Source of the DNA: Stenomitos frigidus ULC18
Lineage (GTDB): Bacteria; Cyanobacteriota; Cyanobacteriia; Leptolyngbyales; Leptolyngbyaceae
Direction: 5' to 3'
Assembly: GCF_003003795.1 (NCBI RefSeq)
Contig: NZ_PVWK01000083.1
Coordinates: forward strand, 124,001 to 188,000
DNA length: 64,000 bases
Shown here: positions 6,548 through 58,808 of the stretch, piece after piece
How positions within the stretch are numbered: the first letter of the stretch is position 1
Layout of the letters: the number at the start of each line of letters is the position of its first letter
Made by a program: the position numbers and the translations under genes
The notes under the pieces: generated by a model
The model's input: the letters and a program-made list of their open reading frames with translations, nothing else
Told to the model about the DNA's origin: nothing
Database searches by the model: none

Positions 6548-9500
6548 ATGGCAATTTTACACGGTAGCTGGTTAATCCATTCTCAAGCGGATGCAGAAAC
6601 GCAAGCACATCAAGCGGCGGGAACAGTTTCCAGCGATCGCTCTACACCCTTTCAAGGCTCTCTTTTTTTGTGGGGAGAAGTCTGGCGCAGAATTGAGCCA
6701 GAGATGTTGCATGCTGGACAGTCTGACGTAGTAGTGGAAAGGCATCCGTTTGCGATGCCCCCGCTTGAGCTACTGGCTTTTTTGCGATCGCGCCAGCAGT
6801 CCGGCAAACTTCGCCTTCCAACCTCACTTCTGGAGTCGGTAGCAGAACCACCTACTGAAACGACCGTGAACGCAAAACGTGGGCGCTCCAAGCAGGGGAC
6901 GACGACAGTAGTCGAGGCGGCGGCACTATCCGGTCAATGGCAGACTCGGACACTAGCCATCCCGTCTCACGTCGCGGATGATGAATGGGAGCTACCAGCA
7001 GGCACGATTGTCCCACAACATTCTGCTGCCAACGACGATCGCGATTGTTTTCTGCATCCCTGGAACGTTGAAGGGCTTCACCTGAATGCGATAGAGGCCT
7101 TAGCGTTTCTGAACTCCTTACCCTTGGGCACCGTGGATGCTGACGACCCGTTGCTCGGTGGTGATTTGCGTTTCTGGTCTCATACTGCCCGCTGGAGTTT
7201 GGATCTATTAGCGCGATCGAAGTTTTTGCCGGGACTGGAGAGGGCAGAGGAGAGAGGGAAGCAAGGGGAGCAAGAAGAGAGAGGGGAGAGGAGTATTGGA
7301 TGGGCGCGGTGGCAACCGTTGCTGGATAGTGCCGTTGATCAGGTGCGGTGGAAGCATTTTGTCGATCGGATGCCCCTGGCATGTCGGATGTCTGAGGAGG
7401 AGGGCAGGAAGGCAGAAGAGCAAGAGGAGCAAAACTCAAAACTCTCTAGCTTGTCGGCGCAGAGCGCTACTCAAAACTCAAAACTCAAAACTCAAAACTC
7501 CCCCCTCGCTCTCCCCCTCCCCCTCTCTCCCCAAACGCTCCTCCAAGCCTTCATCAGCAGCACGCTGGATGCTCAGATCAGGCTACTGGCGCAGCGTCAT
7601 TTTGCGGCAGCGCCTGAGAAAGCCGCTTTGGGTGTTGTGAAGGTGGCGATCGCATCACCCGTGCGGGAGTGGCTACAGGCGTTGGGGCAAGCGACGGCAA
7701 GCGTTGACGCTGCGGGACTGGATTCTCTGGAAGCCGCACTCACCAACTGGACGGCTCCGTTACAGTACAACGGAGCGCAGCAGAATCTCTTTCGCACCTG
7801 TCTGTATCTGCATCCACCGCAAGCAAGTCAGAATCAGTGGTTGCTGGAATACTTTCTACAGTCAGCAGATGACGATGATTTTCTGGTGAGTGCACTCACG
7901 ATTTGGGGCAATCCTGTCGAGCAGTTGCACTATCGGGGGCGGACGATCGATCGACCACAAGAAACCCTGTTGATGGGCTTGGGGCTTGCCTCTCGTCTCT
8001 ATGCACCGATCGAGCCAAGTTTACAGGAAGCACGACCCCAGTTCTGTTCGCTCACGGCACTGCAGGCTTACGATTTTTTGAAAGTCACCGCATGGCGCTT
8101 GCAGGATAGTGGTTTGGGTGTAGTGCTGCCGCCTAGCCTCGCCAATCAGAGCGGCTGGGCGAATCGTCTGGGTCTGAAAATTCAAGCGCAGTCGGCAAAA
8201 CTCAACAAAGGGCAGGTACGCTTGGGGCTCCAAAGCCTGCTCAACTTTCGTTGGGAACTGTCGATTGGGGGACAAAGCCTGTCCAAAGCGGAGTTCGATC
8301 GCCTCGTTGCCCTCAACGCACCCCTGGTCGAAATCAATGGCGAATGGGTCGAACTGCGTCCACAAGACATTCGCGCGGCCCAAACCTTTTTTGCCAGTCG
8401 CAAAGACCAGACGGCACTTTCGCTAGAAGATGCCTTGCGGATTAGCACGGGTGATACACAGACGATCGAGAAATTGCCCGTCGTCAGCTTCGAGGCATCG
8501 GGGCCCTTACAAGAATTGATCACCACTCTCAGCGGCAATCGGCAAATCGAAGCACTGCCCACGCCTAAAAACTTCCGGGGTACACTGCGTCCATACCAGT
8601 CACGCGGGGTCGGCTGGCTGGCCTTTCTGGAACAATGGGGTTTGGGTGCCTGCCTTGCCGACGACATGGGCTTGGGCAAAACCATTCAGCTCATCGCCTT
8701 TCTGCTGCACCTGAAAGAGCAGAAAACCTTGGAGTATCCAACATTACTGGTTTGCCCAACCTCCGTGCTGGGCAACTGGGAGCGTGAGGTGAAAAAGTTT
8801 GGGCCGACGTTGACCGCCTTTTTGTACCACGGCGATAAGCGACCGCAAGGGAAAGCCTTTGCCAAGGCAGTGCAGGGCAAGGATCTCGTGATTACCAGCT
8901 ATGCGCTCATTCATCGCGATATCAAAAGTTTGCAGCCGATCGCGTGGCAAGGCGTGGTGCTAGACGAAGCGCAGAATGTCAAAAATCCGGACGCCAAGCA
9001 ATCTCAAGCAGTGCGAGAGCTTGACGCTCAGTTTCGCATTGCGCTGACGGGCACGCCTGTCGAAAATCGCCTGTCCGAACTCTGGTCGATCCTGGATTTC
9101 CTGAATCCTGGCTACCTGGGACCCAAAAACTTCTTCCAGCGCCGCTTTGCTACCCCAATCGAGCGCTATGGTGATACGGCCTCCTTGGCAACCTTGCGAT
9201 CGCTCGTCCAACCCTTCTTGCTGCGTCGCCTCAAGACCGATCGTGACATTATCCAGGACTTGCCCGAAAAGCAGGAAATGACGGTTTTCTGTGGGCTTTC
9301 CTCCGAGCAAGCCTCCCTCTACCAGCACACCGTCGAGCAATCGCTGAAAGACATCGAAGCCGCTGAAGGCATCCAGCGCAAGGGCATCATTCTCGCGCTG
9401 TTGGTCAAGCTGAAGCAAATCTGTAATCACCCAGCGCTTTTCTTGAAGGAAGACGGCGGGGAAGGAAAGGATAAAGGCTCAAGGATAAAGGATAAAAATA

Positions 9501-10099
9501 GTGACAATGATTTAGCCGTTAGCCTTTATACTTCAGCCTTCCTCACCCGCTCTGGCAAGCTTCAGCGTTTAGAGGAAATGCTCGAAGAAGTTGTGGCAGA
9601 AGGCGATCGTGCCCTCATCTTTACTCAATTTGCAGAGTGGGGAAAACTGCTGAAAGCGCATCTAGAACGGCAACTGGGACGCGAAACCCTCTTTCTCTAT
9701 GGCAGCACATCGAAGAAACAACGGGAAGAAATGGTCGATCGCTTCCAGCACGACCCTCAAGGCCCACGTATCTTTATCCTGTCGCTCAAAGCCGGTGGTG
9801 TTGGCTTAAACCTGACTCGCGCCAATCACGTCTTCCACTTTGATCGCTGGTGGAATCCCGCAGTTGAAAACCAGGCAACCGATCGGGTCTTTCGCATTGG
9901 GCAAACTCGCAACGTGCAAGTCCACAAATTCGTTTGCAACGGCACGCTTGAAGAGAAAGTACACGAACTCATTGAAAGCAAAAAAGCGCTGGCTGAGAAC
10001 GTCATTGGTACTGGCGAAAATTGGCTCACAGAGCTAGACACAAATAGCTTGAGAGACTTGCTGTTGCTCGATCGCAGCGCTATCATTGGCGAAGAATGA
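6548..10099 (+). CDS. SNF2-family DEAD/DEAH-box helicase
   Basis: A 1183-residue Swi2/Snf2-type ATPase. These proteins translocate on DNA and remodel protein-DNA complexes. The N-terminal half (to about residue 670) is the accessory region of bacterial SNF2 proteins. The ATPase core follows: RPYQSRGVGWLAFLEQWG, Walker A DDMGLGKT near residue 705, the box VLDEAQNVKN (DEAQ rather than DEAH), LTGTPVENRLSELWSI, and the C-terminal lobe with GVGLNLTRANHVFHFD, RWWNPAVENQATDR and RIGQT. Three low-complexity insertions in frame (7240-7300, 7394-7530 and 9455-9530) are built from repeats found between genes elsewhere in this window. They fall in surface linkers and keep the frame open, so the gene is probably functional. 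Confidence 0.95.
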   Translation: MAILHGSWLIHSQADAETQAHQAAGTVSSDRSTPFQGSLFLWGEVWRRIEPEMLHAGQSDVVVERHPFAMPPLELLAFLRSRQQSGKLRLPTSLLESVAEPPTETTVNAKRGRSKQGTTTVVEAAALSGQWQTRTLAIPSHVADDEWELPAGTIVPQHSAANDDRDCFLHPWNVEGLHLNAIEALAFLNSLPLGTVDADDPLLGGDLRFWSHTARWSLDLLARSKFLPGLERAEERGKQGEQEERGERSIGWARWQPLLDSAVDQVRWKHFVDRMPLACRMSEEEGRKAEEQEEQNSKLSSLSAQSATQNSKLKTQNSPLALPLPLSPQTLLQAFISSTLDAQIRLLAQRHFAAAPEKAALGVVKVAIASPVREWLQALGQATASVDAAGLDSLEAALTNWTAPLQYNGAQQNLFRTCLYLHPPQASQNQWLLEYFLQSADDDDFLVSALTIWGNPVEQLHYRGRTIDRPQETLLMGLGLASRLYAPIEPSLQEARPQFCSLTALQAYDFLKVTAWRLQDSGLGVVLPPSLANQSGWANRLGLKIQAQSAKLNKGQVRLGLQSLLNFRWELSIGGQSLSKAEFDRLVALNAPLVEINGEWVELRPQDIRAAQTFFASRKDQTALSLEDALRISTGDTQTIEKLPVVSFEASGPLQELITTLSGNRQIEALPTPKNFRGTLRPYQSRGVGWLAFLEQWGLGACLADDMGLGKTIQLIAFLLHLKEQKTLEYPTLLVCPTSVLGNWEREVKKFGPTLTAFLYHGDKRPQGKAFAKAVQGKDLVITSYALIHRDIKSLQPIAWQGVVLDEAQNVKNPDAKQSQAVRELDAQFRIALTGTPVENRLSELWSILDFLNPGYLGPKNFFQRRFATPIERYGDTASLATLRSLVQPFLLRRLKTDRDIIQDLPEKQEMTVFCGLSSEQASLYQHTVEQSLKDIEAAEGIQRKGIILALLVKLKQICNHPALFLKEDGGEGKDKGSRIKDKNSDNDLAVSLYTSAFLTRSGKLQRLEEMLEEVVAEGDRALIFTQFAEWGKLLKAHLERQLGRETLFLYGSTSKKQREEMVDRFQHDPQGPRIFILSLKAGGVGLNLTRANHVFHFDRWWNPAVENQATDRVFRIGQTRNVQVHKFVCNGTLEEKVHELIESKKALAENVIGTGENWLTELDTNSLRDLLLLDRSAIIGEE
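7437..7500 (+). repeat. CAAAACT heptamer repeat and nested element inside the SNF2 gene
   Basis: The block reads CAAAACTCTCTAGC, about 18 further bases, then AGCGCTACTCAAAACTC and more CAAAACT units. It is translated as a run with N-S-K-L-K-T-Q. The same core is found at 53422-53464 within the tocopherol cyclase gene, and a longer form lies in reverse in the intergenic region at 51196-51260. Confidence 0.8.
9455..9530 (+). repeat. AAGGATA heptamer repeat inside the SNF2 gene
   Basis: Several AAGGATA/AAAGGAT units and a TTAGCC-type tail interrupt the region between the conserved KLKQICNHPALFL segment and the C-terminal helicase lobe. They encode a Lys/Asp/Gly-rich stretch (KDKGSRIKDKN). The block is in frame and lies at a natural linker. 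Confidence 0.65.
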
Positions 10100-16550: not shown

Positions 16551-16612
16551 GTGGAATGGAGATGTTGGTTGTTAGAAAGAGTCACTGGTCAGTGGTCAGT
16601 AGCTAGTAGTCA

Positions 16613-16650
16613 ACTCAAAACTCAAAACTCAAAACTCAAAACTCAAAACT
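16613..16650. repeat. CAAAACT heptamer tandem repeat
   Basis: Five units of ACTCAAA/CAAAACT in the gap between the divergent oxidoreductase and Uma2 genes. Just before it are GGTCAGT-type units, and a pyrimidine-rich CCCTCTCCCCCTCC tract follows. This is the intergenic form of the repeat seen inside the SNF2 gene, followed by the same kind of tract as at 7500-7534. Confidence 0.8.
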
Positions 16651-16735: not shown

Positions 16736-17506
16736 ATGTCTCCAGAAGTGGCAATAGAAACTGACTTGTCGCCGGATATAAGCAAGCTGGCGATCGAGGA
16801 CGATACCCCTGTGGACAATCTCATTTCTGAAAAACAGCAACGCTTTCTGACTGAACCACTCTATAGCAATGCTTCAGCACTGGGTGGGAGAACCTTCTTG
16901 TTGGCAGCCAATGTCGGTGTGTTTTATGCCGTGCGTCAGCCGCCACTCGTCCCCGATGTGTTTCTCAGCCTTGATGTTGAAGTACCTCAAGCTTGGCGCG
17001 AAAAGAAAAACCGCACTTATTTTGTTTGGGAATTTGGCAAGCCACCCGATGTCGTGATCGAAATTGTCTCCAACAAAGAAGGTAATGAGTTAGGCAGTAA
17101 GCTGCATGATTACGCCCGGATGGGTGTGGCATACTATATAGTCTTTGACCCACTCCAGCAGTTAGGGAATGAGCCGTTGCGATCGTTTGAGCAACGAGCA
17201 GGACGCTATCAGGAAATGTCCACGTTCTGGTTAGAGGCGATCAGCATCGGTTTAACGCTTTGGGATGGCACCTTTGAAGGCAAAGATGATCGCTGGTTAC
17301 GCTGGTGCAATGCTGAGGGTGTGGCGATCCCCACAGGAGCCGAAAACGCGGAACAAGAACGCCAACGAGCGGAACAAGAACGCCAACGAGCGGAACAAGA
17401 ACGCCAACGGGCGGAACAAGAACGCCAACGAGCGGAACAAGCCGAAGCGAAAGCAGCACAATTGGCAGAGCGACTGAGAGCAATGGGCATCGACCCCGAC
17501 GCTTAG
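16736..17506 (+). CDS. Uma2-family (DUF820) PD-(D/E)XK nuclease-like protein
   Basis: A 256-residue member of the Uma2 family, which is greatly expanded in cyanobacteria and has the restriction-endonuclease-like fold. Core elements are PPLVPDVFLSLDVEV, then FGKPPDVVIEIVSNKEG, GSKLHDYARMGVAYYIVFDP and the final WDGTFEGKDDRWLRW. The E-I-V near residue 107 and the following K fit the (D/E)XK site. The C-terminus is a charged coiled coil made of repeated AEQERQR heptads. The start is supported by GAGAGGA just upstream. A helicase gene starts 12 bases after its stop, so the two are probably one operon. Nuclease activity has not been generally shown for the family. Confidence 0.88.
   Translation: MSPEVAIETDLSPDISKLAIEDDTPVDNLISEKQQRFLTEPLYSNASALGGRTFLLAANVGVFYAVRQPPLVPDVFLSLDVEVPQAWREKKNRTYFVWEFGKPPDVVIEIVSNKEGNELGSKLHDYARMGVAYYIVFDPLQQLGNEPLRSFEQRAGRYQEMSTFWLEAISIGLTLWDGTFEGKDDRWLRWCNAEGVAIPTGAENAEQERQRAEQERQRAEQERQRAEQERQRAEQAEAKAAQLAERLRAMGIDPDA
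17348..17431 (+). repeat. 21-bp tandem repeat encoding the AEQERQR coiled coil
   Basis: Four almost identical 21-bp units in a row (one A/G difference) and a partial fifth, inside the 3' end of the Uma2 gene. Each unit adds exactly one heptad, so copy-number change would lengthen the coiled coil without a frameshift. Confidence 0.9.
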
Positions 17507-38680: not shown

Positions 38681-38712
38681 ACTCAAAACTTAAAACTCAA
38701 AACTCAAAACTC
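38681..38712. repeat. CAAAACT heptamer repeat
   Basis: Four ACTCAAA/ACTTAAA units between the GT2 and antiporter genes, preceded by TTGGTTG-type units at 38620-38665. It is the intergenic form of the repeat found in several genes of this window. Confidence 0.75.
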
Positions 38713-40949: not shown

Positions 40950-41004
40950 GAGTTTTGAGTTTTGAGTTTTGAGTTCAGCCTTTAGCCTTTAGCCTTCTGC
41001 CTCC
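40950..41004. repeat. TTTTGAG and TTTAGCC heptamer repeats
   Basis: Three AGTTTTG units run directly into CAGCCTTTAGCCTTTAGCC and a CTTCTGCC tail, between the antiporter gene and the next gene. Two heptamer families adjoin here, as they do inside coding sequence elsewhere in the window. Confidence 0.75.
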
Positions 41005-52684: not shown

Positions 52685-54240
<1,556 letters not shown>

Positions 54241-58783: not shown

Positions 58784-58808
58784 AACTCAGAACTCAAAAC
58801 TCAAAACT
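58784..58808. repeat. CAAAACT heptamer repeat between chelatase and cobA genes
   Basis: ACTCAGAACTCAAAACTCAAAACTT runs into the last bases before the chelatase stop. It lies within the false extension of the cobA frame, which supports the internal ATG of cobA. Confidence 0.7.

Follow-up and report, generated by a model that had tools for sequence, protein, structure and literature searches.

Heptameric DNA repeats and a nested element in variable protein loops of the cyanobacterium Stenomitos frigidus ULC18

The gene for an SNF2-family ATPase in Stenomitos frigidus ULC18 carries, at 7394-7534, a composite DNA repeat that lies in frame within the coding sequence. Positions refer to the window, the whole stretch of DNA analysed here (64,000 nucleotides of contig NZ_PVWK01000083.1, from 124,001 to 188,000), and are counted from its first letter. 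The question raised by this locus is how a repeat that also occurs outside predicted genes comes to be translated as part of an enzyme. A preliminary description of the DNA had pointed to a family of repeats able to insert into genes and persist there as disordered linkers. This holds, and more broadly than was claimed, with period-7 arrays in 36 of 897 genes predicted in 1.24 Mb of the host; the SNF2 gene itself has two more repeat-filled slots, at about 7244-7294 and 9446-9538. The features of the gene are as follows.

6548..10099, plus strand: host gene, SNF2-family ATPase of 1183 aa (open reading frame; Pfam DUF3670, SNF2-rel_dom and Helicase_C; match to 1z63 at E 5e-148)
7244..7294, plus strand: slot A, purine-rich 7-periodic linker, residues about 233-249 (lag-7 identity; pLDDT <50 at 235-247)
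7394..7429, plus strand: left module of slot B, a purine-rich/GA-rich heptamer-like stretch (sequence)
7430..7443, plus strand: slot B, two CAAAACT units (sequence)
7444..7471, plus strand: nested 28-bp dispersed element CTCTAGCTTGTCGGCGCAGAGCGCTACT inside the CAAAACT array (core TAGC...GCTA at 7447-7469)
7472..7499, plus strand: slot B, four CAAAACT units (sequence, Tandem Repeats Finder)
7500..7534, plus strand: right module of slot B, a pyrimidine-rich C/T tract that continues into the conserved flank (sequence)
9446..9538, plus strand: slot C, residues 967-997, with AAAGGAT heptamers on the left and TTTAGCC/TTCAGCC-like heptamers on the right (Tandem Repeats Finder 9466-9496; between the helicase lobes)

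On re-reading the sequence, the makeup of 7394-7534 is as first described, namely CAAAACT units, a nested core and then a C/T tract; Tandem Repeats Finder reports 7469-7500 as period 7 with 4.6 copies at 100%. The reading frame is kept, as had been stated, since the composite falls within the open frame 6548-10099(+) of 1183 aa. The accompanying idea that three heptamers add whole codons, read as NSKLKTQ, is right about the open frame but too narrow, because what is inserted is the whole composite. The composite had also been likened to arrays at 16613, 38681 and 58784. All three exist and belong to the CAAAACT family, but none contains the nested element; a second window copy of that element lies in another gene.

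16612..16650, plus strand: CAAAACT-family array outside predicted genes (Tandem Repeats Finder)
38681..38712, plus strand: CAAAACT-family array outside predicted genes (Tandem Repeats Finder)
40950..40975, minus strand: CAAAACT-family array, as GAGTTTT (Tandem Repeats Finder)
58784..58808, plus strand: CAAAACT-family array (Tandem Repeats Finder)
53050..54240, plus strand: tocopherol cyclase gene with a GA-rich / GGTCAGC / CAAAACT composite (recognised by the nested element)
53429..53456, plus strand: second window copy of the nested element, in the tocopherol cyclase gene (other frame than the SNF2 copy)

Repeats of other lengths are also present in the window: a 126-bp tandem repeat of 6.5 copies at 345-1160, and a 21-bp tandem repeat of 4.5 copies (97%) at 17348-17441, which encodes the heptapeptide AEQERQR and where the congener G001 is 14 residues shorter.

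The SNF2 protein was aligned with 29 orthologues from relatives and then in a set of 107 distinct sequences (the window's own, those 29 and 80 named loci, less three identical ones of the 110). Genome G009, which has the same family label as the host, encodes an SNF2 protein identical in sequence to the one of Phormidesmis priestleyi BC1401. One member of the set, L025, is a partial contig; another, L019 from genome G010, is represented by residues 417-1183 only, and its three slot-B arrays stand outside the array count given below. The alignment reveals three hypervariable linkers: A (about 233-249), B (the 7394-7534 composite) and C (967-997). The location of the composite in a non-conserved linker is thereby confirmed, slot B being hypervariable across the 107 orthologues and having pLDDT <50 at residues 284-324. 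In an AlphaFold model built from a 32-sequence alignment (mean pLDDT 70.3, pTM 0.48), all three slots (235-247, 284-324 and 967-997) are among the 13 stretches with pLDDT <50; the ten remaining stretches contain no array in the window's gene.

Exact period-7 arrays concentrate in these slots. The slots make up 5.1% of SNF2 residues and hold 31 of the 32 arrays found in the 107 orthologues (A 2, B 19, C 10), the lone exception lying at residue 572 of L074; the binomial P of 3e-39 assumes independent arrays, and arrays within one gene are not independent. At periods 5, 6, 8, 9, 10 and 11 the same genes yield 0, 2, 5, 3, 1 and 0 arrays. One or more period-7 arrays are present in 18 of the 107 genes, the window's among them, and more than 20 different units occur, among them GAGATCG, AGAGGGG, AAGGCAG, ACAAAGG, AAAATCC, GGAAGAA, ACTGGGG, CCTCACT, CCGAAAC, CACCCCA and CTCAGCA. 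A linker shared with distant genera, which would mark the sequence as ancestral rather than repeat-derived, was not found: among the exact arrays of the 107 orthologues, CAAAACT occurs at slot B only in the window. In the congener G004 (L012), slot B holds a single CAAAACT unit and an apparent decayed nested element, and therefore the composite block may predate this species.

The 7-nt period extends beyond the exact arrays. Within the slots 7 nt is the top lag, followed by 14 and 21. Pooled lag-7 identity in the genus is 0.530 at A, 0.380 at B and 0.532 at C, against 0.362, 0.310 and 0.283 at other lags, so that slot B has a weaker 7-period among congeners than the other slots. For slot A, the pooled value over orthologues with at least 45 nt there is 0.447, compared with 0.249 in the first 600 nt of genes.

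Lengths indicate how the slots have changed. In the window protein, slots A, B and C measure 24, 49 and 36 residues (flanks included as cut). In 16 orthologues assigned as non-cyanobacterial from their record titles, the medians are 13, 14 and 10 residues (maxima 25, 18 and 43), and in other cyanobacteria (85 at B) they are 11, 26 and 12.5. Length alone is not unique to the window, which is equalled or exceeded by one other cyanobacterium at A, 15 at B and seven at C. The archaeal structure 1z63 has six residues at the slot C position, compared with 33 in the window protein. The preliminary description had predicted an alignment gap exactly at the insert. The expected difference is present (a median of 14 residues in non-cyanobacteria against 49 in the window), but a gapless insertion point is not; slots B and C are partly pre-existing linkers. 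Because the slot was already a variable linker, the change at B is an expansion and rewriting of that linker rather than an insertion at a gapless point.

Period-7 arrays are a property of the host genome as a whole. Counting arrays of 18 nt or more, 1.244 Mb contains 207 at period 7, and 2, 5, 1, 6, 1, 0 and 5 at periods 5, 6, 8, 9, 10, 11 and 13. With exact arrays of at least 21 nt, 448 kb gives 74 at period 7 compared with none in one second-order Markov shuffle; at other periods there are none at 4-6 and 8-11, one each at 12 and 13, 12 at 14 (twice seven) and six at 15. A chance origin of the period-7 excess is excluded. An assembly artefact was ruled out by the agreement of independent genomes, and codon-level amino-acid repeats by the period of 7 nt.

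Gene calls in the host were hexamer-scored open reading frames made without annotation. By these calls, 78 of the 207 arrays lie in the 36 array-bearing genes and 129 outside, that is, 0.079 per kb of coding DNA compared with 0.50 per kb elsewhere, or about sixfold denser outside predicted genes. Of the in-gene arrays, 66 (27 genes) are at least 150 nt from either gene end, and 63 (also 27 genes) remain when both flanks must score as coding. The unit AAAACTC accounts for 58 of the 207 arrays (15 in genes, 43 outside), the GGTCAGC family for 26 (13 in, 13 out) and AAAGGCT for at least 13. The repeats are of the short tandemly repeated repetitive (STRR) type by two features, the period-7 excess and the presence of several dispersed, mostly intergenic unit families. 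Three consecutive CAAAACT units occur in 19 of 58 genomes, representing 10 genera; a reversed-pattern control is uninformative for this count, since reversing the letters of the unit only yields one of its own rotations.

In-gene arrays are filtered by orientation. Where a unit is free of stops on just one strand, that strand is the one read in 52 of 52 cases within genes, a result that is partly built in, as an open reading frame cannot hold a stop. Between co-directional genes such units divide 35:35, which indicates that array orientation is otherwise free, and a fixed orientation there was ruled out. Composition shows a lean near gene starts: of intergenic arrays within 100 nt of starts, 40 are C-rich on the coding strand, 19 G-rich and two balanced, and near the stop side 47 are G-rich, 38 C-rich and six balanced. 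A similar strand lean has been reported for G-rich repeats of Nostoc and Xanthomonas (PMC4692102).

The nested element, about 24-25 bp plus a CTC/ACTC repeat when judged by eye, is restricted to the genus among the 58 genomes. At up to three mismatches from its commonest form it has 46 copies in the host (reversed control 0) and 3-22 in each of six congeners; it is thus present in all seven genomes of the genus and absent, at the same threshold, from all 51 genomes outside it. The SNF2 copy, with four mismatches, is outside the 46. At up to four substitutions the core has 16 copies in 1.24 Mb, the SNF2 copy included, 12 of which have CAAAACT sequence on both sides; the element sits at a fixed phase of CAAAACT. 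Being very short and multicopy, it agrees with that description of small dispersed repeats. Longer forms, with an apparent further insert of ~45 nt by eye, occur on the minus strand of host contig C73 near 162326 and 20778, and have the appearance of a repeat within a repeat within a repeat.

The frames in which the nested element is read are restricted as well. All seven in-gene copies have the sense orientation; one frame is used by five of them and a second by two. None is antisense and none is in the frame where TAG is a codon, and the two copies in the second frame lack the GTAG that would stop their frame. The element is read as SLSAQSATQ in SNF2 and as an unrelated peptide in tocopherol cyclase. 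Two reading frames imply that the element spreads as DNA and not as protein.

Other enzymes carry such loops. Pfam was applied to 10 of the 36 array-bearing proteins: two remained without a name, and the other eight, largely housekeeping, were MutS, PheT, AnmK, a MalK-type ABC ATPase, an FAD oxidoreductase, an HMGL/LeuA-dimer synthase, an ACP-synthase-III-like protein and a TPR protein. A TPR protein (1505 aa; host C73:32951-37468, minus strand, L048) has nine period-7 arrays in several separate blocks and two nested copies. In all, otherwise intergenic repeats are found in frame in SNF2, MutS, PheT, the LeuA-type synthase, LigA and tocopherol cyclase; the composites in the last two contain no run of cut-off length and were recognised via the nested element. 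The mutS gene (host C92:49602-52604, minus strand, L041) has two heptamer-filled loops, one of which contains eight uninterrupted perfect CAAAACT units (61 nt), where the six congeners have other sequence; the congener G006 has an exact copy of the commonest nested form in the same mutS loop.

Orthologous loops turn over between species. MutS, PheT and the LeuA-type synthase have differing, mostly 7-periodic sequence at the same loops in six congeners, as assessed between species. Over the seven congeneric genomes the main loop measures 21-75 aa in MutS, 17-34 in PheT and 19-67 in the LeuA-type protein, and pooled lag-7 identity in these slots is 0.53-0.65 compared with 0.28-0.33 at other lags, while the conserved columns are 87-93% identical. 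Loops are shortest in G003, where little repeat remains. PheT is the cleanest case: its loop measures 17-34 aa in the genus and 6-11 aa in five genomes from four other genera. For the LeuA-type protein, one other genus has long loops as well, at 40 and 49 aa. One internal stop was flagged in the LeuA-type match of G001, G004, G006 and G021; in G001 and G006 a stop lies near the N-terminal edge of the extracted frame, probably upstream of the true start. A comparison of 80 protein pairs between the host and its closest congener, G001, drawn from stretches chosen around array genes, is suggestive but small: there are 21 internal indels of at least 4 aa, the commonest size is 7 aa (5/21), 7/21 are multiples of 7 aa, and mean lag-7 identity is 0.48 versus 0.29. 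Syntenic aligned blocks of these two genomes are mostly about 75-88% identical.

On this evidence it is probable that a DNA-level heptamer system of the STRR type, with a nested element, grows genome-wide and rewrites tolerated disordered loops in genes. Heptameric tandem repeats would arise and grow in the genome in either orientation, the CAAAACT family carrying the genus-specific nested element. Within genes they would survive given a sense strand without stops, an overall length that leaves the frame intact, and a position in a disordered loop, whether inside a domain or between two. Seven and three being coprime, a heptamer free of stops is open in all three frames and gives the same 7-residue cycle in each (here NSKLKTQ), which makes it tolerable in any frame. 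Once seated, a slot would gain, lose or exchange repeat blocks, and orthologous loops would in this way diverge between species, with about 90% identity kept in the conserved part of the enzyme. The identity and excess of the repeats, their placement in disordered slots, their turnover between species and the filter on orientation and frame are observed directly. We infer that the mutational engine is slippage combined with an exchange of sequence among dispersed arrays, by copying or by template switching; for the proteins the consequences are presumably close to neutral.

A purely local origin, with replication slippage building up the heptamers of every loop separately from a short host seed and nothing copied between loci, is unlikely as a full account. 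Slippage cannot give a near-identical nested element at 46 host places, nor does it fit a single unit, AAAACTC, that makes up more than a quarter of the host arrays and recurs at unrelated loci with purine-left and pyrimidine-right flanks. Local growth agrees better with the diversity of units across SNF2 orthologues, with the resemblance of slot A units to GA-rich host codons in congeners, and with PheT, in which the block GGTCAGC resembles GCGGTCAGC in the repeat-free orthologue of another genus (L196). The slot A repeats do look like local growth from a GA-rich seed, and the AAGGA left block of slot C matches host codons. As some left blocks match host codons in this way, part of the loop repeats may be local growth.

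Could the repeats act instead as contingency loci, in which slippage by a single 7-bp unit shifts the frame and toggles genes such as mutS? Seven is not a multiple of three, mutS has its perfect eight-unit run, and in the SNF2 orthologue of G010 (L019) the frame shifts at the slot-B heptamer cassette and reverts about 100 codons on; this gene may be broken, a switch, or a sequencing error. In contrast, all 28 genes examined across the seven congeners (four proteins in seven genomes) are open across their slots, and the named affected genes are largely housekeeping. Frame changes were inspected in four SNF2 orthologues, those of G010, G013, G015 and G041. G010 has a second one, and in the other three none is at a heptamer array and some are at homopolymer runs, which makes sequencing error a likely cause; it may account for the changes in all four. 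Toggling of genes by such slippage is therefore a poor prospect, and we attach similarly little probability to the specific proposal that the mutS run, with the ligA composite, is a slow mismatch-repair switch working by one-unit frame shifts. If true, such a switch would let the repeat system tune its own turnover and the mutation rate of the host.

It is even harder to credit selection at the protein level, with NSKLKTQ and similar peptides maintained as functional disordered linkers. The peptides are in frame in conserved enzymes and, in SNF2, in predicted disordered loops, but they differ among congeners, one DNA element gives unrelated peptides in two frames, the strongest periodicity of the slots is at 7 nt, ahead of 14 and 21, and the arrays are about six times denser outside predicted genes.

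A single foldback element, whose heptamer arms pair as a long maintained hairpin comparable to the P6b stem of the trnL intron (PMC4476775), is equally hard to sustain: in 33 composites own arms have a mean duplex energy of -30.4, not far from the -28.9 (sd 6.9) of arms picked at random in the genome and no better than the -31.3 of swapped arms (permutation p 0.785). The 33 composites are polar, with mean purine content of 0.63 in the 60 nt left of CAAAACT and 0.25 in the 40 nt to its right, as arms of a hairpin might be, and the window composite has the strongest own-arm duplex of all (-49.8), with an 11-nt arm pair at 91% (7394-7404 / 7515-7525) and only one foreign right arm that suits its left arm better. 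As a general rule the hairpin is disfavoured, and the composites are a tandem mosaic rather than one long palindromic element. Among 65 junctions, no strongly conserved column was found left of CAAAACT arrays.

The heptamer system with its nested element can be placed beside several known ones. Rickettsia palindromic elements, also DNA repeats, have entered the coding sequence of many conserved proteins without breaking the frame; in the host, too, repeats that otherwise lie between genes are read in frame within conserved ones. The Rickettsia elements are longer palindromes, whereas the host has composites of tandem heptamers, with turnover at fixed loops. The small dispersed repeats (SDR) of Nostoc punctiforme (Elhai et al. 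2008) are reportedly gene-free dispersed elements of 21-27 bp near heptamer repeats. They share very small size, dispersal and lack of genes with the nested element, which differs in its fixed CAAAACT phase and its restriction to one genus among 58 genomes.

Heptameric STRR repeats of cyanobacteria (Calothrix PCC 7601; Nostoc GGGGA(C/T)T) are, likewise, dispersed tandem units of 7 nt that are mostly intergenic, 68% in Nostoc PCC 7120, where the intragenic share is above that in xanthomonads (PMC4692102). In contrast, the host unit is CAAAACT with a nested element, and the published account, as far as it is accessible, compares no orthologous slots and mentions neither polar composites nor consequences for proteins. 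The TAACTGA heptamers of Beggiatoaceae and Cyanobacteria resemble the host repeats in that stop content limits their orientation in genes, and their authors suggest that they are tolerated between subunits of modular proteins (PMC4679880). They differ in that most, in the Beggiatoaceae genome, are just upstream of start codons, and the accessible text does not describe loop rewriting in orthologous enzymes (PMC4679880). In P6b of the Nostoc trnL (UAA) intron, one 7-nt class has been replaced by another independently and repeatedly (PMC4476775). This, too, is class replacement at one fixed slot of a functional gene, but the slot is an RNA stem with pairing arms, in contrast to the protein-coding loops here, where arm pairing is not generally supported. 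Thus cyanobacterial heptamers, their presence in some genes, the stop-codon limit on orientation and class replacement at one RNA slot are already in print. What is new is that loop slots at fixed places in core enzymes have been rewritten again and again; a literature search, mostly of papers free of subscription and judged by titles and the opening lines of abstracts, returned no earlier description of heptamer turnover at orthologous protein loops.

Repeats are usually seen as intergenic clutter. Here the same DNA blocks are in frame in the mismatch-repair protein MutS, the phenylalanyl-tRNA synthetase beta subunit PheT, a LeuA-type synthase and DNA ligase, and the orthologous loops, where compared, vary by species at fixed sites while the enzymes stay conserved. 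They amount to a natural experiment in how far individual loops can accept arbitrary sequence, call for caution in the annotation and phylogeny of heptamer-bearing proteins, and offer a route to studying the spread of heptamer repeats in bacteria. They show how DNA that resembles junk can go on rewriting those parts of important proteins that matter less.
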